Assembly (NCBI GenBank): GCA_029907705.1
Contig: JARYLJ010000021.1
Location: forward strand, 1-35,887
Length of the DNA: 35,887 nucleotides
Direction of reading: 5' to 3'
Source of the DNA: Methanomicrobiales archaeon
GTDB taxonomy: Archaea > Halobacteriota > Methanomicrobia > Methanomicrobiales > JACTUA01
Shown piece by piece: positions 166 to 32,951 of the stretch. The position numbers were made by a program, and so were the translations under genes. The notes under the pieces were generated by a model. The model did no database searches and was not told the origin of the DNA. It saw only the letters and a program-made list of their open reading frames with translations. Every line of letters begins with the position of its first letter. The stretch's first letter is position 1.

Positions 166-1799
166 CTTTCAGAGCGACATCCACGAAAACAAGGATTGAA
201 ACATCCTGGTCGGCTGAAACCCGGTGGGGTGCATCCACCTTTCAGAGCGACATCCACGAAAACAAGGATTGAAACGGATCACCCCCCAAGCCCTCGCGAC
301 CTTCCTGGAGGCTTTCAGAGCGACATCCACGAAAACAAGGATTGAAACATTCAAGGCACTCACAGGCAGCCAGCGTCACGACTTTCAGAGCGACATCCAC
401 GAAAACAAGGATTGAAACTGGAGTCGGATCTCCTGGAGGAGCCTCTGGGCCATCTTTCAGAGCGACATCCACGAAAACAAGGATTGAAACCACATCCCCC
501 CGGTAGGAATAGACCCCTATGATCACTTTCAGAGCGACATCCACGAAAACAAGGATTGAAACTGGTATTCTCGGCTAACGAGCTCCCCCACGTTGACTTT
601 CAGAGCGACATCCACGAAAACAAGGATTGAAACACCTATATACCTTTTATAACGCGCGCGCGTGTGATAACTTTCAGAGCGACATCCACGAAAACAAGGA
701 TTGAAACTCGCAGTCAGGTTGATACTGTAAGTGCCTGCCGTAGCTTTCAGAGCGACATCCACGAAAACAAGGATTGAAACTAGCCCCGCTCACCGTAGCC
801 TTCACAGACAACAGCCTTTCAGAGCGACATCCACGAAAACAAGGATTGAAACTCCTTAAACCATTCTTGTAAGTGCCAGCGGTAGCCCTTTCAGAGCGAC
901 ATCCACGAAAACAAGGATTGAAACTCACCATTGTCCTGGACGAGGCTGACGAAATTTTCCCTTTCAGAGCGACATCCACGAAAACAAGGATTGAAACCAT
1001 CAGGACCGGCAAGGATCGTGAACAGCTATGATGCTTTCAGAGCGACATCCACGAAAACAAGGATTGAAACCTACTTTGACTCACGACCCGACCTTCTATC
1101 CGACACTTTCAGAGCGACATCCACGAAAACAAGGATTGAAACTCTTTATTCGCACATTCGAAGTTATCACGCTTGCATACTTTCAGAGCGACATCCACGA
1201 AAACAAGGATTGAAACAAAATCAAACCTTCGTTTTCTGTAACACTTGTGAATACCTTTCAGAGCGACATCCACGAAAACAAGGATTGAAACTTTCAATAA
1301 AGTAGTAAAAAATTCTCTAAGGCGGACTTTCAGAGCGACATCCACGAAAACAAGGATTGAAACTCTCGATAAAAAGCTTAATATTGTGATAACTAGGCTT
1401 TCAGAGCGACATCCACGAAAACAAGGATTGAAACTGATATAAAATCCGCTTATCCTGCCGAAATAGCAAATCTTTCAGAGCGACATCCACGAAAACAAGG
1501 ATTGAAACCATTATGATAATTTTGTATCACCTTTTATGCAAAACTTTCAGAGCGACATCCACGAAAACAAGGATTGAAACTTATATATTTTATGTCTGCG
1601 TCCTTCTCTTTTTCTTCTTTCAGAGCGACATCCACGAAAACAAGGATTGAAACACGGGGATAAATGAAGGAGAAAAAGAAGATTCAGGACCTTTCAGAGC
1701 GACATCCACGAAAACAAGGATTGAAACTCTGTTTGTCGGTGACCAGATACGGCTCTGAGTGCCTTTCAGAGCGACATCCACGAAAACAAGGATTGAAAC
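166..1799 (+). CRISPR. CRISPR array, 23 repeats of 37 nt, 22 spacers
   Basis: Twenty-three copies of a 37-nt repeat, beginning CTTTCAGAGCGACATCC and ending CAAGGATTGAAAC, start at 166, 239, 312, 382, 454, 526, 597, 671, 744, 816, 888, 961, 1034, 1106, 1180, 1255, 1327, 1398, 1472, 1544, 1617, 1691 and 1763. I found no difference between copies, including the last one. Spacers are 33-38 nt. The GATTGAAAC end is typical of archaeal type I-A/I-B or III arrays, but the subtype cannot be set without cas genes. Spacers S1-S13 are mostly GC-rich to balanced, S14-S20 are AT-rich, and S21-S22 balanced again. Readable spacers: S7 (634-670) resembles a promoter; S8 (708-743) and S10 (853-887) are related; S11 (925-960) encodes a helicase motif II; S18 (1435-1471) encodes a family B polymerase motif A. 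All apparent reading frames through the array are products of the repeat. Confidence 0.99.
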
Positions 1800-1962: not shown

Positions 1963-3294
1963 ATGCGATATATAGAAAGAATGGAATGGTTCATCCTCCC
2001 GGCCGTGGCGGTGATTGTTTATGCCACGGTCGCGGTTAATTTCTACATCAGGAGGCCTCTGGGGGATCGCATCGTGTTCTACGGGCCCATCATGGCGATC
2101 AAGACCTTCAGAGTGGGTTTTCTAGATACATTCCTGAGATTCCGTTCTGCATTGAAGGTCTACGGCACCATCGGGGCGTTCATGGTCGTGGTGGTATCCA
2201 TTTTCATGACTTTTTCTCTGCTGCTCATCTTCCCCCAGTTCATCTCCCAACCGCCACCCCCCACCGGCATACATGATCCGAGGAATATTCTCGCGATTCC
2301 AGGGCTTAACCAGGCGATCCCGTTCACCCTCGCCGTCTGGTTGGGCTTACTGCTCACGATCTTTGTCCATGAGTTCGGACATGGTATACTCGCCCGTGTA
2401 GAGTCGATGCGTGTGAAGAGTATGGGCGTGCTGTTCGCGGTCCTTCCCATAGGTGCGTTCGTCGAGCCCGATGAAGGGGATGTGGAAAAAGCGAAGGGCA
2501 TTTCGAAGATCCGGATGTTCGGAGCGGGCATCGCAAACAATCTGCTGGCCGCTCTCGTCTCCTTCGGGCTCCTCTTCCTCCTCCTTGGCTACGCGGTTCC
2601 TTCTCCCGTTCCCCTTGTATGGGGATATTACGGCGGCTCACCCGCAGAGCGGGCAGGTATCCCACCCCTGGGCATCGTGAAGGAGATCGGCGGGGTGGAG
2701 GTTGATACGATCGATGGGGCGTTCCAGGCACTGGAACGGTATGCCCCCGGAGATGAAGTCGCATTCAGGATCGAGAAAGGAGGCATGGAGAATACCTACC
2801 TGCTGAGGGTGGAGGAATGGCCTGAGAACATGTCAGGAAAGAGTCCTGTATTTACGGGTATATTCTATTACAATCCTGTATCAGTCAAGGATACACTGGA
2901 GAGGAGTGCGGAGCTGGGGATCCTTCTCCCGCTATTTCTGCTTGCCGTGCCACTCAACGTCTTCATCGACGGCAACACCGCAGGGCTGGATATTCTGGTG
3001 ATGGACTCCCCGGTCTCGGTCGCCTGGATGGTGCCCTTCCCGGGCTTCTTCTGGTTCATGATACAGGCGCTCTTCTGGTGTGGATGGTTCAATGCGGCGG
3101 TGGGAATCTTCAATGCCCTCCCGCTGCTACCACTGGATGGCGGATATATCATGAAGGAGTGCGTCGAGAGGTTCTTCGAACGGAGGGGCTGGTCACGGTA
3201 CTCCTACCTCGCGGTGAGTGCGATCAGCAGCATCATCGCATTCGTGATACTGACCATCATCGCACTGCCGATACTATCGCAATTTCTCAAATGA
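1963..3294 (+). CDS. Site-2 protease family (M50) membrane metalloprotease with PDZ domain
   Basis: A 443-residue polytopic membrane protein. The zinc-binding motif HEFGH is at residues 136-140 inside a hydrophobic segment, and the second M50 motif, LPLLPLDGG, ends at 394 with its metal-binding Asp at 392. A PDZ-like region, with GSPAERAGIPPLG at about 225-237, lies between them. This is the site-2 protease layout: intramembrane cleavage of membrane-anchored substrates, often signalling proteins; the substrate here is unknown. Hydrophobic segments are near residues 8-27, 70-92, 120-138, 190-212, 320-335, 355-385 and 415-440. An alternative ATG at 1981 (MEWFILPA) would start directly at the first membrane segment and may be the true start, since no ribosome binding site precedes either. 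The TPR gene follows under its own promoter. Confidence 0.93.
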   Translation: MRYIERMEWFILPAVAVIVYATVAVNFYIRRPLGDRIVFYGPIMAIKTFRVGFLDTFLRFRSALKVYGTIGAFMVVVVSIFMTFSLLLIFPQFISQPPPPTGIHDPRNILAIPGLNQAIPFTLAVWLGLLLTIFVHEFGHGILARVESMRVKSMGVLFAVLPIGAFVEPDEGDVEKAKGISKIRMFGAGIANNLLAALVSFGLLFLLLGYAVPSPVPLVWGYYGGSPAERAGIPPLGIVKEIGGVEVDTIDGAFQALERYAPGDEVAFRIEKGGMENTYLLRVEEWPENMSGKSPVFTGIFYYNPVSVKDTLERSAELGILLPLFLLAVPLNVFIDGNTAGLDILVMDSPVSVAWMVPFPGFFWFMIQALFWCGWFNAAVGIFNALPLLPLDGGYIMKECVERFFERRGWSRYSYLAVSAISSIIAFVILTIIALPILSQFLK

Positions 3295-6679: not shown

Positions 6680-7288
6680 TCACACCTTCTCCCTGACCAG
6701 ATGATCGAGCTCCAGCTTCTCTGCGATCACTCTGGAGTTCTCCTTCATCTTCTCTGCGATCCTTTCGAGGTCCATGGTATCCAGAAGACTGAGATCGTCG
6801 TTCTGTCCTGCAGCCCCTGATCCCCTCCGGAGATCTTTTGGGCTTTCACTCGCCTTCACGGGTCCGCTGTACCTGTGAGGGGATGCAATGGCCTCCTCGC
6901 GGGGTTTTATCATCTCTTTTCTGGAGACCGGCTCCCTCGGTGGTTCCCGTGCGGGGTTCATCACCTTCAGCGGCTCCGATTCGACCCTGAGAACACAGTT
7001 TTTATTGAACTCCCTCGTCAGCTCGACCTGTGCATCCGTGAGGCAGAATAGCTCTGCATCCACCTCTGTGTTGTCAAGGGCACTCAACAATTCCAGCGCT
7101 GCCTTCCCGCATACCGTGCCGCAATCGGCGAGGATCAGCCGCCCTTTCTCCAGTACCACTGTCCACTTGGCATCCTGAATGAAAAACGAGAGATACCCGG
7201 TGAACCTCGATGCACCCATCTCCCCGAGTATTTCCCTCAGCGGAGCGCCCTTCCGGATCGACTGGAATATCCCGCGGGGAAGTTGCAT
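6680..7288 (-). CDS. DUF2226-like archaeal protein, first gene of the roadblock/MinD operon
   Basis: A 202-residue protein. The first 110 residues (MQLPRGIFQSIRKG, RFTGYLSFFIQDAKWTVVLE, KGRLILADCGTVCGKAALEL) resemble the archaeal DUF2226 domain, in which a 'FTGY' strand and a 'G.liiA' strand recur; a PATAN/DUF4388-like fold is an alternative. The rest (115-202) is Pro/Arg/Glu-rich and probably disordered, ending in a predicted helix (LERIAEKMKENSRVIAEKLE). The start at 7288 was chosen because a TATA box (TTATAAAT, 7314-7321) implies transcription from about 7290, giving a leaderless message; the upstream ATG at 7312 would fall before that. Function unknown. It is divergent from the response regulator gene. 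Confidence 0.7.
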   Translation of the reverse strand: MQLPRGIFQSIRKGAPLREILGEMGASRFTGYLSFFIQDAKWTVVLEKGRLILADCGTVCGKAALELLSALDNTEVDAELFCLTDAQVELTREFNKNCVLRVESEPLKVMNPAREPPREPVSRKEMIKPREEAIASPHRYSGPVKASESPKDLRRGSGAAGQNDDLSLLDTMDLERIAEKMKENSRVIAEKLELDHLVREKV

Positions 7289-7630
7289 CAAATAATACTT
7301 AAGGTTTTGCAAATTTATAATTTTATTGTTTTATTTATTTATGAAAAATGTATGAAAAAATAGATTTAATATTTTAAGATCTGTCCATATTAGATATTTG
7401 CTGTGTACAATAAAACAATAATTATATATTTACCAACAATAGAGAATAAATTGACGGAGAATGCTCTGATGCAAGGTGCACATTCATCGGGGGAAGATAG
7501 ATTCGGGATATGCCGGGTGTGGACCGTAGGGGATCAGCTGATCCGCTCCTCTTGTATGGGTGCCTCGATCCCTCTCGGTCTCCCGTGCGGTCCGAAAAAT
7601 TCCAGTGCGGTAACGAGGGAGTGACAATAA
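7289..7630. promoter_or_regulatory. Divergent intergenic region between the MinD operon and the response regulator
   Basis: The left part (7310-7450) is extremely AT-rich and has several TATA-like stretches. The right part contains a perfect 14-bp palindrome, GGATCAGCTGATCC, at 7531-7544, about 87 bp before the response regulator start, a candidate operator. An open frame at 7403-7624 has no family features and ends just before the regulator's Shine-Dalgarno; I do not call it a gene. Confidence 0.5.
7314..7321 (-). promoter_or_regulatory. TATA box of the DUF2226/roadblock/minD operon
   Basis: TTATAAAT on the minus strand, centred about 26 bases before 7290, in a very AT-rich intergenic region. 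It fits a leaderless or nearly leaderless transcript starting at the ATG at 7288. Confidence 0.5.
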
Positions 7631-8284
7631 ATGTATACGATACTTGTGGTGGACGACAGTCCCTTCATCGTGGATGTATTCATCAATATGCTGGAGAGGG
7701 GGGGTTACAGGGCGATCGCCGCCTATAGCGGCCAGGAGTGCCTCGACATCCTCAAGGATGTGACGCCCGATCTCATTCTTCTGGACATCATGATGGAGCC
7801 AATGGATGGCTGGGAGACGCTGGAGAATATTAAAAACAATCCGGCGACGAAGGATATCCCTGTTCTCATGCTGACGGCCAAGCAGCTCACTTCGGAAGAG
7901 GTGCAGGAGTATGGGATGTACATCGAGGATTATGTGCTGAAGCCCATCACTCACAAGGAGCTCTACGATGCGATTGAGAACGTGATGAGGCGCCGTTCAA
8001 CGATAAACATGAATGTGGAGGCAGCAAAGAACGTCGGATTCGATCAGAGGCTTCTGGACGAGTATGCGAGGCTCAGCAAGAGCGTGGATGTGAACAAGAG
8101 GCTGCTGAAGATCCTCGAGACGACATACAACGTCCACGACTCAAAGGTGAAGCTGAGCGAGAAGATCTCCAGCACGATCAAGGGGATGAGCATGAGCATC
8201 AAATTCCAGGAGGAGCGTCTCGGCCATATAAGGGAGGAGTTGAATAAGGTGGTAGATACAAAGGTGACAGAGAGGCAGAGCTGA
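7631..8284 (+). CDS. Response regulator: receiver domain plus coiled-coil C-terminus
   Basis: A 217-residue protein. Residues 1-120 are a CheY-type receiver domain: acidic pair Asp8-Asp9 (VVDDSP), phosphoacceptor Asp52 (LILLDIMM), Thr82 (MLTAK), and Lys104 (VLKPI). The C-terminal ~95 residues have no DNA-binding or enzymatic motif and are largely helical (RLLDEYARLSKSVDVNKRLL; IKFQEERLGHIREELNKVVD), so they probably bind a partner. A strong Shine-Dalgarno (GGGAGTGA) precedes the ATG. No histidine kinase is nearby. It faces the DUF2226/roadblock/minD operon across 342 nt, and a functional link is plausible but inferred. A run of seven Gs at 7698-7704 is in frame here. Confidence 0.9.
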   Translation: MYTILVVDDSPFIVDVFINMLERGGYRAIAAYSGQECLDILKDVTPDLILLDIMMEPMDGWETLENIKNNPATKDIPVLMLTAKQLTSEEVQEYGMYIEDYVLKPITHKELYDAIENVMRRRSTINMNVEAAKNVGFDQRLLDEYARLSKSVDVNKRLLKILETTYNVHDSKVKLSEKISSTIKGMSMSIKFQEERLGHIREELNKVVDTKVTERQS

Positions 8285-12237: not shown

Positions 12238-12247
12238 AGGGTAGAGT

Positions 12248-16074
<3,827 letters not shown>

Positions 16075-16075
16075 A

Positions 16076-16366
16076 ATGGATTTCAACAGCTCATTGAGAA
16101 AGGCGATCAGGACCGGTGACGTGGTCCTCGGTCAGAACAGTGTAAAGGAGATGGTCCGTGAAGGGAAGGCACAGCTGGTAATCATGGCACAGAATTGTCC
16201 GGCTCCCTTCAGGCAGTTCATCGAAGGTATCGTGGATCTGAGTGTCTACCGCTACGAAGGATCGGGTGCAGAACTCGGCAGGGCGTGCGGGAAACCCTTC
16301 GTCGTCAGCGCCCTCGCAATTGCAAATCCAGGTGATTCGGATATTCTTTCCCTGAAGAGGAGTTGA
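16076..16366 (+). CDS. rpl30e: Ribosomal protein L30e
   Basis: A 96-residue L7Ae/L30e-fold protein: SLRKAIRTGDVVLGQNSVKE, KAQLVIMAQNCP, and SGAELGRACGKPFVVSALAI, the usual L30e RNA-binding fold with its VLG and ELG turns. It sits between rpoA'' and nusA, its standard place in euryarchaea. The ATG at 16076 was preferred over the in-frame GTG at 16067, which would overlap the rpoA'' end. It is part of the polymerase operon. Confidence 0.95.
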   Translation: MDFNSSLRKAIRTGDVVLGQNSVKEMVREGKAQLVIMAQNCPAPFRQFIEGIVDLSVYRYEGSGAELGRACGKPFVVSALAIANPGDSDILSLKRS

Positions 16367-16367
16367 G

Positions 16368-16799
16368 ATGGGAGAGATTGTGCTCACAGAGGATTGTATG
16401 CGGATCATATCCCAGTTCGAGACCCTGACCGGTGCCTCGAGCCGGGACTGCATCATCGACGATAGGAACGATCGAATCATCCTGGTAGTGAACCCTGGTG
16501 AGATGGGCAAGGCGATTGGGAAGAAGGGCGCCAGTATCAAGCGCGCATCAGAGGAGATGGGGAAGAAGATCGAGGTGGTGGAGTACTCCACGAATCCAGA
16601 ACAGTTCCTGAAGAACTGCTTCCTCCCCGCACACATCACCTCTGTAGAGTTCATGGACCAGAATGGCGAGAAGATCGCGAGGGTGGTCGTCAGGGATGAG
16701 GAGCGCGGAATCGCGATTGGAAAGGAAGGTAAAAATATCTTCAAGGCAAAGAGGCTGGCTCAGCGCCAGCATGATATTGTGGATGTACAGCTGATATAG
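16368..16799 (+). CDS. nusA: NusA-like KH-domain transcription factor (archaeal pKH type)
   Basis: A 143-residue protein with two KH domains and none of the N-terminal or S1 domains of bacterial NusA, as usual in archaea. KH1 carries GEMGKAIGKKGASIKRASEE (about 44-63) and KH2 carries RGIAIGKEGKNIFKAKRLA (about 112-130). It binds RNA and is thought to act in termination or antitermination. It begins one base after the rpl30e stop. In many euryarchaea rps12, rps7 and elongation-factor genes follow; here the operon ends and a convergent gene lies 23 bp away. Confidence 0.95.
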   Translation: MGEIVLTEDCMRIISQFETLTGASSRDCIIDDRNDRIILVVNPGEMGKAIGKKGASIKRASEEMGKKIEVVEYSTNPEQFLKNCFLPAHITSVEFMDQNGEKIARVVVRDEERGIAIGKEGKNIFKAKRLAQRQHDIVDVQLI

Positions 16800-23212: not shown

Positions 23213-24256
23213 TTACCTGTCAGAGTCTCGCCCTCTCTTCCGTGGGCGCGTCTCTTTCCTCTCTGCGAGGCGCTTCACCGCAGCCATCTCCGCCTCGCCA
23301 CCCTCCTCGAGGAGACCGGAGAGGAGTGCACTCCTGTAGAACCCCTCCCCTATTTCATTACTAATAAGGAGCGTCGTATAACCCTTTTTCGCCCCTGAAC
23401 TCCCTGCCGATATGTCTGCATCCGCAGCGGCGAAGTCGATGCATTGTATGCAGCCTGGCCTCACGCATCCTTCGATTTCAGAGAGTGGAATCGACTTCAC
23501 TGTGCCGTCCATAAGCGTCAGATCCAACTGCCCCTTCACTTCAAACCTCCTGATCTCCCAGGATGCAATCCCCAGCTCACCTGTGAGCTTCTCTTGTACC
23601 AGACACCTGTAATCGAAGCTCTCGGTGCAGAACAGCCCGATAATCAGTCTGATTGCGTTCCCGAAGGGTTTAACCAGCGGATGCCTGCTCACCTTCATCC
23701 TTCTCGCCGCCTGCACTGCACAGGGGAGCCCAACTACCCCCAGTCTGGAATACTTATGCGTTATGACCGCCTCTTTCAGCGCCGCAAGCAGGGGGCTGCC
23801 CAGACTATAGCGGCTGCCCGCGTGCCGTACCAGCTCTTCCGCCGAGGCGAGCAGCGCTGAGGAGGTGCGGTGCGTCCATGGATCCTCCGTCACCATGATC
23901 ACCGCATCGAGCAACCCTTTGTCGAGGGCGTTCTTCAGTATCGCGGTCACCGCGCCACCGCTCTGGCTCGCGGGAATATCGAATGTCGCCCTCGCCTGGA
24001 TCGCGCTCCGATATGTCCCAAGTGGATCTCCATGCAGGGAGATATTCGCACGCGGGCAGACCTCGACACAGGCACCGCACAGGACATGGTCGCTCTCCTC
24101 CTTACAGTACTCGTTATGACATGGATGCGTTGATCCCTCCTTATCGCCGAAATAGATGGAGTCTGCCGGGCAGACGGCCACGCAGGCGCCGCAGCCGGTG
24201 CAGAGGTTCACCTCCCAGACCTCCTTCTTCAGATCGAGATATGACTTCCTCGCCAT
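23213..24256 (-). CDS. FrhB/FdhB-type F420-reactive subunit linked to glutamate synthase
   Basis: A 347-residue protein. The N-terminus has two ferredoxin-type [4Fe-4S] motifs, CTGCGACVAVCP (about 19-30) and CGACVEVCP (about 61-69). The rest is the coenzyme F420 hydrogenase/dehydrogenase beta-subunit domain: SQSGGAVTAILKNALDKGLL, VVGLPCAVQAARR, and GCIQCIDFAAADADISAGSS, the usual cluster and flavin region. Such subunits pass electrons between F420H2 and FeS/FAD partners. It lies 4 nt after the glutamate synthase domain-3 gene, so it probably makes the complex an F420-dependent glutamate synthase. The ATG at 24256, with GGGAG upstream, was preferred over a TTG at 24289 that overlaps the previous gene. 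The frame is intact. Confidence 0.88.
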   Translation of the reverse strand: MARKSYLDLKKEVWEVNLCTGCGACVAVCPADSIYFGDKEGSTHPCHNEYCKEESDHVLCGACVEVCPRANISLHGDPLGTYRSAIQARATFDIPASQSGGAVTAILKNALDKGLLDAVIMVTEDPWTHRTSSALLASAEELVRHAGSRYSLGSPLLAALKEAVITHKYSRLGVVGLPCAVQAARRMKVSRHPLVKPFGNAIRLIIGLFCTESFDYRCLVQEKLTGELGIASWEIRRFEVKGQLDLTLMDGTVKSIPLSEIEGCVRPGCIQCIDFAAADADISAGSSGAKKGYTTLLISNEIGEGFYRSALLSGLLEEGGEAEMAAVKRLAERKETRPRKRGRDSDR

Positions 24257-24260
24257 CCCA

Positions 24261-25003
24261 TCAGTACTCCCATGAATATTTGCCCGCAAAAGGGCGGTTC
24301 GAGGCGGGGCCGATCCTGGTGAACTCTTCTGACATCAGTTTCTGCACATCGATGTGGAGATAACCGGCGGCTTCCCTCAGGCAGGCACCGATCCTCTCCC
24401 TTTCCTCCTCGCCGAATGGCTGTATGGCGGCGCCTACGCCGAGGAGTCGCTCATCCACCTCCCCGCGAATATAGATCTCACCACCATGAATTCCCGTCCC
24501 GATCCCGCGTTCCATCACCGTCTCCCCCCTCCGAGGCCGAGGACGATCACGAGCCCCCCCGCCATGTACTCTCCCAGAAACGCCCTCGCGCTCCCGCGGA
24601 TGAAGAGTAATGGGAACTTCTCCCGATACTGCTTCATATGTATCCCCCCTCGATATCCGATCGAGTCCCTGACGAATATTCTGCCGCCCCTCATACTGTG
24701 AGCGACCGCATCTCCCGCAGTACCATGGATGATGATCGTGCCTGCGTCCATCGTGTTTCCTGGTGCGTGTTCGCAGATTCCATGGACGATGCATGTGGGA
24801 CCGCTCATGAACATGCCGAGGTCACCTCCTGGAGTGCCATTAATGACGATCCTCACCTCCGCATGGAGTCCGTCGGCGATGAACCGCTGCCCCAGCACAT
24901 GATCCAGCTGGATCTCCTTCGCCCCTTCCGCCACCGCATATCTTATATGCCGGTTCAGTTCTGTGTGATGCATCCCTTCTGCATCGATACGGATGCTCTT
25001 CAT
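24261..25003 (-). pseudogene. Glutamate synthase GXGXG (alpha-3) domain protein, frameshifted
   Basis: Domain 3 of archaeal glutamate synthase, a right-handed beta-helix of GXGXG repeats with a structural role. The first frame runs from the ATG at 25003 (MKSIRIDAEGMHHTELNRHI) through GGRIFVRDSIGYRGGIHMKQ and GGLVIVLGLGGG, then stops at 24515. The rest of the domain (GETVMERGIGTGIHGGEIYI, ending PFAGKYSWEY) is in another frame and stops at 24261. One extra C in the C6 run at 24524-24529 (G on the coding strand) restores GLGGGGETVMERG. So the gene is either broken by a single-base loss or the base was missed in sequencing. It starts 4 nt after the gltB2 stop. Confidence 0.85.
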
Positions 25004-25007
25004 TGCC

Positions 25008-26517
25008 TCACGCCCCTGCCGGTTTCACATCAAGCACCTTCAGCGTCCCTTCATCCAGCATATAGCCACGGAGCCTGTCCCTGTTGCCCCTCATGCTCTC
25101 GATGCTGTTTATTCCGGCCGCCCCCATCAGCTCCGAGAGCTCGAGTGTCCACGCCTTTATCAGGTTCGCCACCTGCTTTGCTCCCTCTTCCGGATCGAGC
25201 CGTTCGACGAGATCAGGCCGCTGCGTCGCGATGCCCCAGGGGCACAAGCCTTTGTAGCAGCTCCCGCACACACGACACCCCATGGCAACGAGAGCGGCAG
25301 TGCCTATGTAGACGGCATCCGCACCCAGCGCAATCACCTTTGCCACATCGGCACTGCTCCTTATACCGCCGCTCGCAATGATCGAGATCTCGTTTCGTAT
25401 CCCCTGCTCCCTTAGCTTGGAGTCGACGCTCGCAACTGCCACCTCCACGGGGATGCCCACATGATCCCTGAATACCCTCGGTGCCGCACCCGTGCCGCCT
25501 CTGAATCCGTTGATCACGACCGCATCCGCCGAGGATCTCGCGATGCCGGCGGCGATGGCTGCTGAATTGTGAACCGCCGCGATCTTGACGAAGACCGGTT
25601 TCTTCCACTCCGTCGCCTCCTTCAGGGATCTGACGAACTGCTTCAGATCCTCGATGCTGTAGATGTCATGATGTGGAGCCGGGCTGATCGCATCGCTTCC
25701 CACAGGGATCATCCTTGTGCAGGAGATATCATCGCAGACTTTCTCCCCTGGAAGGTGCCCCCGATGCCTGGTTTTGCGCCCTGTCCGATCTTGATCTCGA
25801 TCGCGGCACCGCGTTCGAGGTAATCGATATCCACACCGAACCTTCCTGATGCGACCTGTACGATGATATGCTCCTGGAACGGGTGCAGCGCGCTGTGCAA
25901 TCCACCCTCTCCGGTCCCCATAAACGTGCCCGTCTCCATCGCCGCTCTGGCCAGGGCGAGATGCGCGTTCAGGCTGATCGCCCCGTAACTCATATGGGCG
26001 ATCATGATCGGGTTTCAAGCTTCAGGTTCGGCGAGAGGTTTGTGTCGAGGGCCACACCGCCTCCTTCGTTCCGTTTCAGCCTGAGCTGGAGGGGTTTCTT
26101 TCCGAGGTATGTCCGTAGCTCCATCGGCTCCCGCAGCGGATCGATGCTCGGGTTCGTCACCTGGCAGGCATCGAGCAGCAGTTGATCGAAGACGATTGGA
26201 TAAGAACCCATGTTTCCCATCCCTGAGAGCACAATTCTTCCGGTCCTCGCCTGATTGTAGATCGCCTCACGTATCTCCCTGGTCCAGACCGGATGGCTGC
26301 GGTAATCGATCGGGCGCTCCTCGAGCGAGATCGCATCCCTCGGGCACATGGCAATGCACCGGTGGCACGCGGTGCATCTCCGCGAGTTAGCCAGAACCCG
26401 CTCCCCCTCCTTTCTGAAGACGCCGTAGGAGCAGTTCTCGATACAGCTCCCGCACCGCATGCACCGGTCTTCATCCACCTCCACGCGGTACCTGGGGGGC
26501 AGACTGCCTATGCTCAC
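25008..26517 (-). pseudogene. gltB: Glutamate synthase catalytic (FMN, alpha-2) protein with ferredoxin domain, two frameshifts
   Basis: The central glutamate synthase protein, which should make glutamate from 2-oxoglutarate and channelled ammonia on FMN. Frame 1 (26517-26002) starts at GTG and has two ferredoxin motifs, CMRCGSCIENC and CTACHRCIAMCP, then TGRIVLSGMGNMGSYPIVFD. Frame 2 (about 26008-25709) has MIAHMSYGAISLNAHLALAR and ERGAAIEIKIGQGAKPGIGG. Frame 3 (about 25757-25008) has LPGEKVCDDISCTRMIPVGS, DAVVINGFRGGTGAAPRVFR and the 3Fe-4S ligands in CRVCGSCYKGLCPWG. One extra G in the GGG at 26010-26012 gives LETPIMIAHMSYG, and one extra C in the C5 at 25758-25762 gives GIGGHLPGEKV. With both bases restored the protein is complete, about 500 residues. 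Confidence 0.9.
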
Positions 26518-27567
26518 GAAAAAGACCTCCCGATCACCGGTTCAACGGCCCGCGGCATGTACACCTGCCCCACATCCGGATCCATCCGCCTGATCGCCGC
26601 CTCCTCGCTCGAGAGGAGGAGACGCGAGTCATGCTCTCCTGCGACGAGCGGGCGAAGCTTCACCCGGTCGGTCAGACCCATCATCAGCCCCCCGTTCGCG
26701 ATCACGATGGCGAATGGACCGTTCATCATCGCTCCTCCATAGGTGAGCCTGACTGCATGTGCGAGCTTCTTCTCCTCCTCCGGCATCCCTTCGATCTCGT
26801 CCCAGAAGGGGGGTGCGAGCGCCTTCAATGCGATCTCTTCTGGCAGCCCATGCCTCCTTATCAGGAGATCCACCAGGTATACGATGACTTCGGTGTCGGT
26901 AATCATCGTGCAGTAATAGCCGAAGCTCTCGATATAGCGCCGGTTCGTTCCATAGGAGGTGATCTCACCGTTGTGGATCACGCACCAGTCGAGCAGGTTG
27001 AAAGGATGGGCGCCCCCCCACCATCCCGGTGTGTTGGTCGGGTACCGATTGTGCCCCAGCCACATGTAACCGCTGTAGTCCTCGATCCGGTAGAAGTTTG
27101 CCACCTCTTCAGGCCAGCCCGCTGCCTTGAAGACACCAAGGTTCCTCCCCTGAGGATATGATCAGCGCCCCTCTCCTCTCCCTGTTCACCTTCATCACCA
27201 GGCGCGTGACGATCTCCTCCTCAGGCGAAGTGCTCCAGGGCATCAGCCTCCGGTCAGGCTTGAAGAAGTACCTCCATGGCGTATGCACCTTCCGGAGGTT
27301 CGGCTGTTCGAACGTGGGGATCTCCTCGTCATGGACGATCCGCCCCCACTTCTCCAGCATCTCTTCGAAAGGTATCCTGTGTTCGTGGACATTGTCGAAG
27401 AAGACGTGGAGAGCATAATAATCCTCGAAGTCCGAATATGCCCCGTAGACCGCGTAACCGGCGCCTTCGCCGCTACTACGTTCGTCCTTGAGGGAAAGCG
27501 CTCGCCTGATTCCGGATCCGTCCATCTCCTCTCCTTCGCGATCGAAGACTCCGATGATACCGCACAT
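26514..27567 (-). pseudogene. Glutamate synthase glutamine amidotransferase subunit, one frameshift
   Basis: Class II glutamine amidotransferase (alpha-1 domain) that should release ammonia from glutamine. Frame 1 starts at the ATG at 27567 with MCGIIGVFD, Cys2 being the N-terminal nucleophile, and runs to a stop at 27109. From about 27142 the protein continues in another frame: [20 protein letters not shown], then [20 protein letters not shown] (substrate-binding RYPT), [20 protein letters not shown] and the end at VIGRSFS. Removing one C from the C4 run at 27147-27150 restores [21 protein letters not shown] precedes the start. The stop overlaps the GTG of the next gene (GTGA). Divergent from glnA. 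Confidence 0.9.
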
Positions 27568-27794
27568 ATACTCCCTTTATCCTCCCGATCTCGTTACTGG
27601 CCTATAGTTCAAAAAACAAGCTTTCTGATTACACCATATGCTTACAATGATATTCCCCTCCTCTATAAGATAACAAACTATATATAATATTTTGTAGAAG
27701 CATATTTCCTATTCACCATTTTTTGTTCCGGGTAGATCCTCTCATAAAAATCGTTAATAGCGGACGGATAGACCGGTGATCTGGAGAAGATTGC
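27568..27794. promoter_or_regulatory. Divergent promoter region, glutamate synthase operon and glnA
   Basis: The AT-rich centre (27660-27715) contains TATATATAATAT at 27679-27690 and CTTATAGAG on the minus strand near 27667-27659. CTCATAAAAAT at 27741-27751 is a plausible glnA TATA box, giving a start near 27771. The 8-bp inverted repeat ATATGCTT (27636-27643) and AAGCATAT (27698-27705) flanks the central AT-rich core and may be an operator. The methanogen NrpR operator pattern GGAA-N6-TTCC was looked for and not found. Confidence 0.5.
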
Positions 27795-29126
27795 ATGCAC
27801 GATATGCCGAAACCGGAAGAGATATTGGCAAAGATATCCAGAGACGGGATCAAATTCCTCCGCCTGCAGTTCTGTGACATCGAGGGGCTGCCGAAGAACG
27901 TGACTGTTCCGGCGAGCCAGGCGGAGAAGGCACTCAACGGTGGAATCTACTTTGATGGCTCCTCCATAGAGGGTTTTGCCCGCATCGAGGAGTCCGATAT
28001 GCTGCTCAAGCCGGATCCATCCACATACTCGATCCTCCCGTGGCGTTACTCAAGCGAGAGGGTGGCGCGGATGATCTGCGACGTATACACATACGATGAG
28101 AAGCCATATATCGGCGATCCCCGCTTCATTCTGAAACAGACAATGAAAAAGGCGGAAGAGATGGGTTATGTCTTCAATACGGGTCCTGAACTGGAGTTCT
28201 TCCTCTTCAAGAGGGCGGAGGATATGCCCACCACGGAGCCGCAGGATTACGGCGGATACTTCGATTTCGCCCCCGTTGATCTGGCGGAGGACGTAAGGCG
28301 CGATATCATACTTGCGCTGACAGAGATGGGCCTGGAGATAGAGGCATCCCACCACGAGGTTGCCGCAGGTCAGCACGAAATCGATTTCAAGTACAGCGAT
28401 GCGCTTCACACGGCAGACAACGTGATCACCTACCGGATCGCGACGAAGACGATCGCCTTGAACCAGGGGCTGCATGCCACCTTCATGCCAAAGCCGATAC
28501 ATGGAGTCGCCGGCAGCGGGATGCATACCCACTGCTCCCTCTTCCAGGAGGGCAGAAACGCATTCTATGATCCGGATGCCCCGCTTCAGCTATCGCGTCT
28601 GGCGCTGCACTTCATCGGGGGCCTTCTCAGACATGTGAAGGGGATTACCCGGCTTGCAAATCCGACGATAAACTCCTATAAGAGGCTCGTTCCGGGTTAC
28701 GAGGCGCCCGTCTACATCAGCTGGAGTGCCAGCAACCGTTCGGCACTGGTGAGGGTGCCCGCAGCGAGAGGTAACAGCACGCGTGCAGAGTTCAGGAGTC
28801 CGGACCCTGCCTGCAACCCGTACCTCACCTTCGCCTGCATGCTCGCCGCAGGCCTCGACGGCGTAAGGAACCGGATCGAGCCCCCGGAGAGCGTGAACGG
28901 CAATATTTACGAGATGAGCCCAAAGGAGCTGAAGCGACTGAAGATCGAGACACTGCCTCAGGATCTCCCGACCGCGATGCGCGAACTGGAGAGGGACAGC
29001 ATACTCGCAGAGACGCTGGGCGAACACGTGATGGAGAACCTCCGCAGAATTACTGACCTCGAGTGGGAGTCATACAGAACCTCCGTCCACGACTGGGAGC
29101 TGAAAAAATACCTCTCCAAATTCTGA
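27795..29126 (+). CDS. glnA: Glutamine synthetase, type I
   Basis: A 443-residue GS type I: FDGSSIEGFARIEESDMLLK, ELEFFLFKR (metal-binding Glu), GVAGSGMHTHCSLFQ, NPTINSYKRLVPGYEAPVYI, NRSALVRVPAARG and SPDPACNPYLTFACMLAAGL, all in the expected order. It condenses glutamate and ammonia with ATP to glutamine; with glutamate synthase it forms the GS-GOGAT route, and the two operons are divergent. Length and the NIYEMSPKELK segment suit the GSI-alpha type, which is usually not adenylylated. GGAG lies 9 bases before the ATG at 27795; the ATG at 27804 (MPKPEEI) is a possible alternative start. Confidence 0.97.
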   Translation: MHDMPKPEEILAKISRDGIKFLRLQFCDIEGLPKNVTVPASQAEKALNGGIYFDGSSIEGFARIEESDMLLKPDPSTYSILPWRYSSERVARMICDVYTYDEKPYIGDPRFILKQTMKKAEEMGYVFNTGPELEFFLFKRAEDMPTTEPQDYGGYFDFAPVDLAEDVRRDIILALTEMGLEIEASHHEVAAGQHEIDFKYSDALHTADNVITYRIATKTIALNQGLHATFMPKPIHGVAGSGMHTHCSLFQEGRNAFYDPDAPLQLSRLALHFIGGLLRHVKGITRLANPTINSYKRLVPGYEAPVYISWSASNRSALVRVPAARGNSTRAEFRSPDPACNPYLTFACMLAAGLDGVRNRIEPPESVNGNIYEMSPKELKRLKIETLPQDLPTAMRELERDSILAETLGEHVMENLRRITDLEWESYRTSVHDWELKKYLSKF

Positions 29127-29894
29127 TTTCGATATTTTTCCGATCGCTGCCCATCACAGGCTTCTTTCCACCCCCCTCCACCCTCAGGGCGACAGTCATT
29201 CCGACCTGAACGTTGAATGGATCGATAGAACCTTCGAACCACTATAACCGCCCATTTACCGATAATGCCCCGAGTTAGGAATTATCCCTTATTTCGGGAT
29301 ATCCTCTGCTCGATCTTCACCCTCGCACTGCATCATGTGTGGATATAGATAACGATCTCGTTGGATTCAATTTTTCCATGGTGTTGCTGCCTGTTCGATG
29401 TTTGCAGATCGATCTTCCATCGTAAATACCGTCTTGTTGTCGAATAAGACGTGGGGCATCCATTTCGGGATCATCGCATGGGGTAGTTCTCGTATCCTGC
29501 CTTATCAGCGGTTAGATGAACTCCATTACTTCTCATATTGTGGGCGTGCAACGGTAACTTAGAGTGTCCTTGTCAATTCCTGTGGTTATAGGACAGAATG
29601 GATTGAGATGACAGAGTCAAGGTCATAGAACTGCTTCTGGAAGGTTCTCAGGAGAGAGACAGGGCGTATCAAAGGGATTCCAGCGGGAGGAACTCATCAT
29701 GCTCGAAAATGGCACTCCATCGTTCTTCAAGCCCCTTTCCAGCCGGCCTTCTCAATGAGTCTCCGGATGGTGGTACAGCTCAACTGAAGAAGGTATCTGC
29801 ATCGTGTATTTTAGAACGATATCGATGAGCTTCTGAAAAAATTCGGGCATTGCAGGGGATTCGTTCATTCAAATGATGGATATTCATACCGCCC
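29127..29894. other. 768-bp region without an intact gene
   Basis: Stops are frequent in all frames and I find no RNA gene. On the minus strand at about 29800-29735 one frame reads LLQLSCTTIRRLIEKAGWKG between stops, like the recognition helices of a transposase or HTH protein; it is too short to assign and may be a relic. The region has a more even base mix than the coding parts, and could contain a decayed mobile element or a regulatory RNA. Confidence 0.4.
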
Positions 29895-30341
29895 CTAACC
29901 CATTGGCACGAACCGCAGTGCCCCGGAGTTGATACAGTACCTCTTGCCGGTGGGCGGTGGCCCGTCGTCGAATACGTGGCCCAGGTGCGCACCGCACCTT
30001 GCACAACGCACCTCCACCCTCGGGTATCCGAGCTCCATATCCTCTCCATAGATAATGTTCAGTTCTGATACTGGCGAGGTGAAGCTCGGCCATCCTGTGC
30101 CTGAATCGAATTTATCTCTTGATGAAAAGAGATCTGTGCCGCAACAGACACAGGTGAAGACCCCTTTGCCTTTGAATGCATGGTACCTTCCCGTGAAGGG
30201 TGGTTCGGTCCCCTTCCTCCGTGCGATCCTGAACTCCTCCGCTGTCAGCTGCCTCCGCCACTCCTCGTCGCTCTTCGCGATCTTCTCCACCTCTATCGGT
30301 GCTCCCTTCTTTACACTGTATATCATTAATTTATCCGCCAT
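29895..30341 (-). CDS. msrB: Peptide methionine-R-sulfoxide reductase
   Basis: A 148-residue MsrB: structural zinc ligands Cys64/Cys67 (FTCVCCGTDLF) and Cys113/Cys116 (VRCARCGAHLGHVFDDG), the SGTGWPSF motif at 80-87, and catalytic Cys136 in KRYCINSGALRF. It reduces methionine-R-sulfoxide in proteins, an oxidative-damage repair function that also occurs in strict anaerobes. The candidate resolving Cys is less clear. It lies 44 nt after pyrK on the same strand and may be transcribed with it. Confidence 0.97.
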   Translation of the reverse strand: MADKLMIYSVKKGAPIEVEKIAKSDEEWRRQLTAEEFRIARRKGTEPPFTGRYHAFKGKGVFTCVCCGTDLFSSRDKFDSGTGWPSFTSPVSELNIIYGEDMELGYPRVEVRCARCGAHLGHVFDDGPPPTGKRYCINSGALRFVPMG

Positions 30342-30385
30342 GCTCCTGCCTCACAACCTCTCCAAAACCCTGGGGTCGTCTCCCT

Positions 30386-31159
30386 TCATATCATTCTCCT
30401 CCTTCCGGCTCCGTCTCTCTTGTAATGCCCGAACTCTCCATCGAGCAGGAGGTCTCCCCTTATCACCGGACCCTCACGGCAGACACAGATACCAAGTGGA
30501 TCGATGCAGCAGGAGCCGCATATCCCGATCCCGCACTTCATGTATCGGTGCAGACTGAACCACCCCTTCTTCGCCATGTCTTTCGCGACGAGTCTGTCCA
30601 GCACCACCTTCATCATCACCTCGGGGCCACAGACACAGACCTGATCGAATGCCTTCAGATCCACCAGATCTGTGTCGTCGAGCAGATCGGTGACGAAACC
30701 GCTATATCCGAGGGAGTCGTCGTCTGTCGCAACGAGCAGGTTCGTGCATTCATCGAGTATATCGATGAATGGGAGCTCGTCCTCGGATCTCGCGCCCAGC
30801 ATAAACGTATTCACACAGTCCGACATGGCGAGCGGCAGGAGCGGCGCTGCCCCGATGCCCCCGCATATGGCCAGTATCTCACCGCGGTCGGGGAAATAGT
30901 TCCCGTATGGGCCCCTGATACCGATTCGATCCCCTGGCTTCATCCCGAAGAGTGCTTCGGTCGCATCGCCCACTTTCTGGACGGAGATCGAGACCCGCGA
31001 AGAGAGCGCCATCGGGATCTCGTCTACCCCTGGCACCCAGACCATGACGAACTGCCCTGGCCTGAATTCGAACTCTTCCGAGAGGACGAGGGTCCTGATG
31101 CTGGGTGTCTCCCTCACCACTCTCTCGATCTTCACCACATGCGGCGGCCCCTCATCCAT
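30386..31159 (-). CDS. pyrK: Dihydroorotate dehydrogenase electron-transfer subunit
   Basis: A 257-residue ferredoxin-reductase-type protein: FAD-binding barrel (FEFRPGQFVMVWVPGVDEIP, PMALSS), a nucleotide-binding domain (ILAICGGIGAAPLLPLA), and a C-terminal [2Fe-2S] site in MKCGIGICGSCCIDPLGICV with four Cys. PyrK pairs with PyrD in class 1B enzymes and passes electrons from dihydroorotate to NAD+ or another acceptor; the acceptor in this organism is not certain. Its start overlaps the pyrD stop by eight bases, so the two are coupled. Confidence 0.95.
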   Translation of the reverse strand: MDEGPPHVVKIERVVRETPSIRTLVLSEEFEFRPGQFVMVWVPGVDEIPMALSSRVSISVQKVGDATEALFGMKPGDRIGIRGPYGNYFPDRGEILAICGGIGAAPLLPLAMSDCVNTFMLGARSEDELPFIDILDECTNLLVATDDDSLGYSGFVTDLLDDTDLVDLKAFDQVCVCGPEVMMKVVLDRLVAKDMAKKGWFSLHRYMKCGIGICGSCCIDPLGICVCREGPVIRGDLLLDGEFGHYKRDGAGRRRMI

Positions 31160-32039
31160 GGGCGCACCCCACGATCTCCTCCGGGGAGATCCCCTTCTCT
31201 TCGTAAAGCCGTGAGGCGATCCTGGTGAATATCTCCGGATCTTGGTAGATAGCGGTACCGATCTCCACCGCGCTCGCCCCGGCCATCATCATCTCGATCA
31301 CATCATCTGCGGTCGAGATCCCGCCGCAACCCACGAGCGGAATATGGCATGCCTTGTACAGCTCGTACACACACCTCAGTGCGACCGGAAAGATCGCTTT
31401 TCCTGAAAGGCCCCCGATCCCATGCCCAAGCACAGGGCGCCTCATCTCGATGGAGATGCGCATCGCCCTGATCGTGTTTATCGCGACCAGCGCACTCGCG
31501 CCCCCCTTCTCTGCTGCCTGACCGATCTCCCTGATATCCGTCACGTTGGGGGTGAGTTTTACCCATGTGGGTTTGCCCAGAGATGCGACCGCCCTCGTAC
31601 ATTCGTATACCATATCGGGGTCTGTACCTATTGCGGCACCATATCCCTCCGCGTGGGGGCAGCTCAGATTCAACTCAAATCCTTCCACGTCATTCAGCAT
31701 CCATTCCGCGACCATTCTGTACTCTGCCGGATTCGCGCCGAATATGCTGGCGATCACAGGCTCGTTCTTCAATCCGGAGAGCTCCTCCCTGAACTCGTGC
31801 GAGGGATTCGGAAGGCCCATCGCATTCAGCAGGCTGCCTCCGAGCGGGACCACGCAGGGGCCGCGATGGCCCTCGCCTGGCACAGGCCCTATCGACTTGG
31901 TCACTACCCCTCCGGCACCCGCACGGAGCATCCGCTTGAGGGAGGCGCCGGTCGTCCCCAGTATACCAGCGGCGAGGAGGAGATGGTTCCTCAGCCTGAT
32001 CCCGCCCACGCATACGGGGCCTGTTCTGAGCGCGACCAT
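31152..32039 (-). CDS. pyrD: Dihydroorotate dehydrogenase, class 1B catalytic subunit
   Basis: A 295-residue TIM-barrel flavoenzyme: LLLAAGILGTTGASLKRMLR, NAMGLPNPS, FELNLSCPHAEGYGAAIG (Cys is the class 1B catalytic base), KPTWVKLTPNVTDI, ALVAINTIRAM, and the FMN phosphate site VGCGGISTADDVIEMMMAGA. It oxidises dihydroorotate to orotate in pyrimidine synthesis. The frame is open for another 287 codons upstream, but those lie antisense to malate dehydrogenase and have no family similarity; MVALRTGPVCVGGIRLRN at 32039 is the natural N-terminus. Confidence 0.96.
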   Translation of the reverse strand: MVALRTGPVCVGGIRLRNHLLLAAGILGTTGASLKRMLRAGAGGVVTKSIGPVPGEGHRGPCVVPLGGSLLNAMGLPNPSHEFREELSGLKNEPVIASIFGANPAEYRMVAEWMLNDVEGFELNLSCPHAEGYGAAIGTDPDMVYECTRAVASLGKPTWVKLTPNVTDIREIGQAAEKGGASALVAINTIRAMRISIEMRRPVLGHGIGGLSGKAIFPVALRCVYELYKACHIPLVGCGGISTADDVIEMMMAGASAVEIGTAIYQDPEIFTRIASRLYEEKGISPEEIVGCAHG

Positions 32040-32081
32040 GGATGGGGATTGTAGTTTTTTTATTATTAGTATACCTATATT
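32040..32081. promoter_or_regulatory. 42-bp divergent promoter, pyrD and malate dehydrogenase
   Basis: Only 42 bp separate the two start codons. GTTTTTTTATTATTAGTATACC (32054-32075) is AT-rich and can supply a TATA-like element in each direction: TTTATTATTA toward malate dehydrogenase and TAATAATAAA toward pyrD. Both transcripts must be leaderless or nearly so if these are the promoters. Confidence 0.45.
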
Positions 32082-32951
32082 ATGCACATGACCAGCCTCT
32101 CCCTTATCGGAGTCGGGAGAATTGGCGGGGAGGTGGCGTTTCTTGCATCCTTTCTCGGCATCGTCGACGAATTGAACATGAATGATGTGAACACCACATT
32201 GCTGCATGCACAGATCTCCGATCTGAAGCATGCCATGCCCGGGCTGGAGATCACGACGGGGCTCGAGGCGGCGATGAGATCCGAGATCTGCATCTTCACC
32301 GCCGGCATCCCGCGGAATCCATTGGTGCCGAGCAGAGCAGATCTTCTGAAAGACAATCTGCCCGTCGCAGTGCGCTATTCGGAGAGGTTGAGAGGTTACC
32401 GTGGCATACTGATCACAGTCACGAACCCTTCCGACATCCTGAATTACCAACTCTCCACGAGGGCAGAGATAAATCCCTCCCGCTGCATCGGATTCGGCGG
32501 GCAGCTGGACAGCGCGCGCTTTGCCGGGGAACTCATATCCAGGGGGATCAAGGGTGAGGCGTGGGTCCTGGGTGAGCATGGCGAACATCAGGTCCCGATC
32601 TTTAGCATACTGGGGAGCGAGGTGGGACTGGAGGAGCGAGAAGAGATCAGGAAAACACTCCGAAGTGCCAGCATGGGAGTGATCGCGGGGAAGGGGGGGA
32701 CCATATATGGGCCTGCTGCGCATATTACCGAGCTCATCTCCGCCATTGTGGATGATACACAAGGCACATATGCCTGCTCCTGCATCCTGGATGGGGAATA
32801 CGGGATCTCTGGGTGCTCCATCGGTGTTCCGGCCGTCATCGGAGAGGGAGGGATACTGGAGATCGAGGAATGGTCGCTCGATGAATGGGAGAGGAAACAC
32901 CTAGAGGAAGGAGCGCAATTTCTGAAGGATTCGATAAAGAGCACGGGGTGA
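32082..32951 (+). CDS. mdh: Malate dehydrogenase (LDH/MDH family)
   Basis: A 289-residue NAD(P)-dependent 2-hydroxyacid dehydrogenase: SLIGVGRIGGEVAF (Rossmann GxGxxG), FTAGIPRNPLVPSRADLLKD, ILITVTNPSDILNY, FGGQLDSARFAGEL (catalytic Asp), and WVLGEHGEHQVPIFS (catalytic His). The Arg in IPRNP at the specificity position, where lactate dehydrogenases carry Gln, favours malate/oxaloacetate. The family is well known in archaea with dual cofactor use, which cannot be decided here. The start may be the ATG at 32082 or at 32088 (MTSLSLIGVG). polB follows 4 nt after the stop. Confidence 0.93.
   Translation: MHMTSLSLIGVGRIGGEVAFLASFLGIVDELNMNDVNTTLLHAQISDLKHAMPGLEITTGLEAAMRSEICIFTAGIPRNPLVPSRADLLKDNLPVAVRYSERLRGYRGILITVTNPSDILNYQLSTRAEINPSRCIGFGGQLDSARFAGELISRGIKGEAWVLGEHGEHQVPIFSILGSEVGLEEREEIRKTLRSASMGVIAGKGGTIYGPAAHITELISAIVDDTQGTYACSCILDGEYGISGCSIGVPAVIGEGGILEIEEWSLDEWERKHLEEGAQFLKDSIKSTG

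Follow-up and report, generated by a model that had tools for sequence, protein, structure and literature searches.

Does a glutamate synthase (GOGAT) operon broken by four single-base frameshifts record the genuine decay of a pathway, a reversible switch, or errors in the sequence itself? The operon lies in a 70-contig, 1.79-Mb draft genome (98.85% complete) of a Methanomicrobiales archaeon, on contig C59, whose 35,887 nucleotides are referred to here as the window. This genome is the only one of its genus in our comparison set; among named genomes it matches Methanolinea and other Methanoregulaceae most closely, which puts it in Methanomicrobiales. The operon spans 23213-27567 on the minus strand, and by Pfam it comprises an archaeal split glutamate synthase and an FrhB/Fsr-N-like subunit (Table 1). 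Its gene order, running from the GATase subunit through the ferredoxin-FMN and GXGXG subunits to the FrhB-type subunit, is common to relatives, and its synteny is conserved within the order. We suggest that the ancestral operon encoded a putative F420-dependent glutamate synthase (FGltS), with three GltB-type subunits and one of FrhB type. Known FGltS-type systems, including that of Methanothermobacter (PMC3087415), likewise set archaeal GltB-type subunits beside an FrhB/Fsr-N-type F420-binding subunit, but here three of the subunits are frame-disrupted. The F420H2-linked activity of FGltS is putative in the literature too (PMC3448663).

Table 1. Positions of the operon pieces, frameshifts, neighbouring features and broken genes elsewhere; positions are those of the window unless a contig of the same genome (G000) is named.
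Feature	Location	Strand	Basis
GATase (glutamine amidotransferase) subunit, first frame	27109..27567	-	tblastn to relatives, frame -2
GATase subunit, second frame	26514..27146	-	GATase_2 1.8e-10; 69-73% identity to relatives
Ferredoxin-FMN subunit, first frame, two 4Fe-4S motifs	26002..26517	-	Fer4 2.7e-11; edge of Glu_synthase
Ferredoxin-FMN subunit, second frame	25739..26011	-	Glu_synthase 1.2e-33
Ferredoxin-FMN subunit, third frame (FMN/3Fe-4S part)	25008..25760	-	Glu_synthase 4.2e-81
GXGXG subunit, first frame	24515..25003	-	GXGXG 5.8e-25
GXGXG subunit, C-terminal piece, other frame	24261..24536	-	40-63% identity to relatives
FrhB/Fsr-N-type F420-binding subunit, frame intact	23213..24289	-	FrhB_FdhB_C 5.1e-32
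Frameshift 1, GATase gene, +1 base vs relatives	27140..27158	-	DNA alignment to 9 relatives; 86 ORF fragments
Frameshift 2, ferredoxin-FMN gene, -1 base vs relatives	26006..26018	-	DNA alignment; 76 fragments
Frameshift 3, ferredoxin-FMN gene, -1 base vs relatives	25757..25763	-	DNA alignment; 94 fragments
Frameshift 4, GXGXG gene, -1 base vs relatives	24515..24540	-	DNA alignment; 76 fragments
Promoter region common to operon and glnA	27568..27794	.	motif scan
Intact glnA (glutamine synthetase)	27795..29126	+	TIGR00653 3.7e-168, full length
Gene-poor stretch, ~770 bp, downstream of glnA	29127..29894	+	
Second glnA (glnA2), broken	G000:C18 (locus L124) 405-1750	-	frameshift near 1571-1574; TAG at 1206-1208
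Ku, in-frame TAG, and adjacent ATP-dependent DNA ligase, two TAGs and a frameshift	G000:C16 (locus L247) 14826-16648		
SBF/ACR3-like (arsenite-type) transporter, single frameshift	G000:C33 (locus L248) 15145-16223		
ABC-2 permease, single frameshift	G000:C8 (locus L258) 6996-7747		
CxxCxxCC protein, single frameshift at T7 run	G000:C60 (locus L261) 2316-2718		

The original prediction placed four single-base frameshifts in these genes, with one base too many in the first and one too few in the other three. Both the gene assignments and the signs hold. When the intact proteins of relatives are searched by tblastn, the match switches frame near 27140-27158, 26010, 25740-25760 and 24515-24540; DNA alignment to relatives returns the same signs, and each break is located by 76 to 94 ORF fragments from relatives. 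The prediction also put every shift in a G/C run, which is clear for the third, at the C5 run 25758-25762 (G5 on the minus strand). The first is in or beside the run 27147-27150 (G4 on the minus strand), with an extra G that could equally sit in the adjoining GG, and the missing base of the second is placed near 26010-26013. The fourth is near the C6 run 24524-24529 (G6 on the minus strand); its exact base is ambiguous, and its placement is the least certain of the four because the GXGXG protein is poorly conserved there. A related protein is encoded in 57 of 61 genomes, and clear orthologues uncut by contig ends are open, with lengths of 503-773 aa on complete contigs against 337 aa here, so that only the present genome is fragmented. 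The four frameshifts are thus confirmed, from alignment, as real features of the sequence, and with four sites and both signs the operon carries more than one independent lesion. The GATase first frame begins MCGIIGVF and includes the class-II catalytic Cys2; the Pfam GATase_2 match covers only the second piece. A second Glu_synthase copy on contig C46 (38% identity), considered as a backup GOGAT, was rejected as a rubredoxin-type paralogue, and similar copies (36-42% identity) are found in many relatives.

If low coverage or mixed strains had produced four wrong run lengths, the operon would be intact in the cell, and G/C runs are indeed present at or next to all four breaks. The protein around them is also still well conserved, the third ferredoxin-FMN frame being 80-90% identical to most relatives' orthologues, and some genes elsewhere have a single break in well-conserved sequence, such as the ACR3-like transporter with 85% identity past its break. 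Such local sequencing or assembly error, the one serious rival to decay, is nonetheless an unlikely explanation, in the first place because the background rate is low. We compared 629 kb outside the window with relatives' ORFs; in the 294 kb with homologues, five frameshifts and four TAG nonsense codons remained after antisense shadows and neighbouring genes were filtered out, the five being a minimum since sensitivity is lower outside the window, where most genes have only one or two relatives. At this density about 0.06 frameshifts are expected per 3.3 kb, against the four found in 3.3 kb of GOGAT sequence (Poisson P of at least four ~4e-7, or ~2e-4 allowing for block choice). The window's RNA-polymerase genes and, on C33, the region of ribosomal-protein genes (locus L129) showed no breaks, and errors would therefore need to cluster in one dispensable pathway. 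Longer C7 runs inside the operon (24554-24560 and 27013-27019) stay in frame, and the window's G7 runs (4175, 7698, 32693) fall, much as predicted, in or beside unbroken genes.

The prediction further held that the window has no other frameshift and that the breaks are confined to the GOGAT genes. We found none besides these four in the window; genome-wide the confinement fails, as at least six other genes in the 629-kb sample are broken (glnA2, Ku, DNA ligase, a transporter, a permease and a CxxCxxCC protein). The Ku/DNA ligase end-joining pair looks decayed, judging by its stops and frameshift. Several candidate breaks were discarded: L129, L135, L252 and window positions 12242, 14936 and 16089 are antisense shadows at gene junctions; DUF655/RrnaAD, the gene beside DUF371, and PurS are separate neighbouring genes, as is the pair at L129 11499, judging by ORFs alone. 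A 582-aa ORF at 31152-32900, considered as a fusion, is pyrD plus the antisense of a malate-dehydrogenase-like gene. All four in-frame nonsense codons elsewhere are TAG (L124 1206; L247 15396, 15819 and 15969), a pattern that is probably due to chance; the main terminator is TGA, used by 254 of 334 genes.

The proteins themselves also bear on the question. At columns that are invariant in relatives, the GATase N- and C-terminal pieces have changed at 5 of 40 and 7 of 102 and FrhB at 8 of 88, each above any relative, the FrhB count being matched by none of 74; the FMN C-terminal part has changed at 2 of 147 and the adjacent intact GlnA at 0 of 136. We preferred an amino-acid relative-rate test, with three genomes per comparison, to dN/dS because the nearest genomes share only ~73% DNA identity and silent sites are near saturation. 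On this branch every comparison gives a raised rate for GOGAT, by a factor of 1.4-2.2 (p 0.0003-0.04), and FrhB evolves 1.6-3.5 times faster; the control ratio for CCA is 0.86-1.06, and a further control, NrdD, shows a slight excess in a single comparison, at 1.61 (p 0.045). The excess change is strong in GATase and FrhB and weak in the FMN domain. The operon proteins thus show relaxed constraint on this branch, unevenly between domains. Since FrhB is unbroken, its fast evolution is no by-product of the frameshifts, and it speaks against sequencing error. The departures in GATase and FrhB, with a rate that is raised in the operon but not in CCA, suggest that some time under relaxed constraint has elapsed. 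The conserved flanks had been taken to favour an error or else an event of very recent date, a reading that these changes show to be too strong.

Functionally linked genes elsewhere in the genome point the same way. The glnA2 gene, on another contig, is broken twice, once by a frameshift and once by a C-to-T substitution that turned CAG into TAG (DNA alignment), which cannot be put down to a miscounted run. This gene is ~78% identical to relatives' GOGAT-adjacent glnA and groups in the tree with a G008 copy that is intact at 448 aa (support 96/93 for the sister pair). It lies next to a gene for F420 gamma-glutamyl ligase, an arrangement also seen in G008:C177. The Amt transporter, present in 58 of 61 genomes, was not found in the draft, and an intact 418-aa glutamate dehydrogenase (GDH) offers an alternative. 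For these reasons, together with the relaxed constraint, real decay is the best supported of the three options originally listed, and the operon is likely to be a set of pseudogenes left by genuine decay of an ammonium-scavenging pathway.

The remaining alternatives fare much worse. Slippage-based phase variation, which would toggle the operon by adding or dropping single bases at or close to short G/C runs and was among the options first proposed, is highly improbable: usual switching tracts are longer than the 3-6 bases of the runs here, there is no long simple-sequence tract at the breaks, the window's G7 and C7 runs lie away from them, the runs at these sites are not kept in relatives, and four simultaneous off-states across three genes would be required. 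Programmed ribosomal frameshifting or other recoding could account for protein conserved on either side of the shifts, and a reassigned TAG could account for the uniform stops elsewhere, but it has hardly any claim, since bases are both gained and lost, three genes are affected, the sites are common to no relative, relatives read each gene in one frame, a search for pyrrolysyl-tRNA synthetase (PylS) gave nothing above the cut-off, and TAG terminates 43 of the 334 genes as an ordinary stop.

Under genuine decay, the putative F420-dependent glutamate synthase would have lost its function in this lineage, with further single-base indels later piling up in or near G/C runs. Glutamate would then be made via GDH and glutamine via the window glnA, which is divergent from the operon and is the genome's remaining intact copy; both alternative-route genes are present and intact, as gene presence. 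This would suit an ammonium-rich habitat, in which the high-affinity Amt/GS/GOGAT route would no longer be selected; Ku/DNA ligase and some transporters are apparently on the way out as well, which fits mild genome reduction. Some observations count against decay: the GOGAT pieces contain no in-frame stop, although the inferred number of neutral changes might have produced about one or two; the excess change is uneven; NrdD is slightly fast; both NrpR-domain proteins are present and intact; and the absence of Amt is absence from a draft. The promoter region shared by the operon and glnA has a weak NrpR-operator-like site with one mismatch at 27696-27709; the operator scan showed no enrichment, and Rfam gave no match over 27400-30400. 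Several relatives, G003, G004 and G005 among them, carry amt downstream of the glnA that neighbours GOGAT, and no amt remnant was found in the stretch downstream of glnA here.

Precedents for such loss exist in the order, and there is little new in kind. The operon is wholly absent from 8 of 54 near-complete Methanomicrobiales, and GDH is present in 6 of these 8. One of them, G029, is a parallel loss, without GOGAT, Amt or NrpR and with two strong GDH matches. In these genomes (genus g18, G029 and others) the same pathway is gone and GDH is usually kept, but no recognisable operon is left, whereas the present genome is caught part-way; from its gene remains it looks like an intermediate stage of a loss completed in several Methanomicrobiales. 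In two near-complete genomes of the order, G013 and G018, neither a GOGAT orthologue nor a full-length match to GDH was found. As in ordinary archaeal and bacterial pseudogenes of shrinking genomes, several dispensable genes here carry indels and nonsense codons, but this case differs in having four lesions within a single operon and losses that centre coherently on nitrogen.

Evidence from linked genes in other parts of this genome allowed pathway decay to be told from sequencing noise. A more specific scenario, which we put forward tentatively and hold to be somewhat less likely than its alternatives taken together, is that the lineage is mid-way through giving up both its Ku/ligase repair genes and its whole high-affinity route for ammonium, with Amt gone, breaks in GOGAT and glnA2, and NrpR kept, possibly in a host-associated or permanently ammonium-rich niche. 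The genome should not be annotated as having GS/GOGAT, and decay of the operon predicts that the organism would need ammonium at levels fitting glutamate dehydrogenase.
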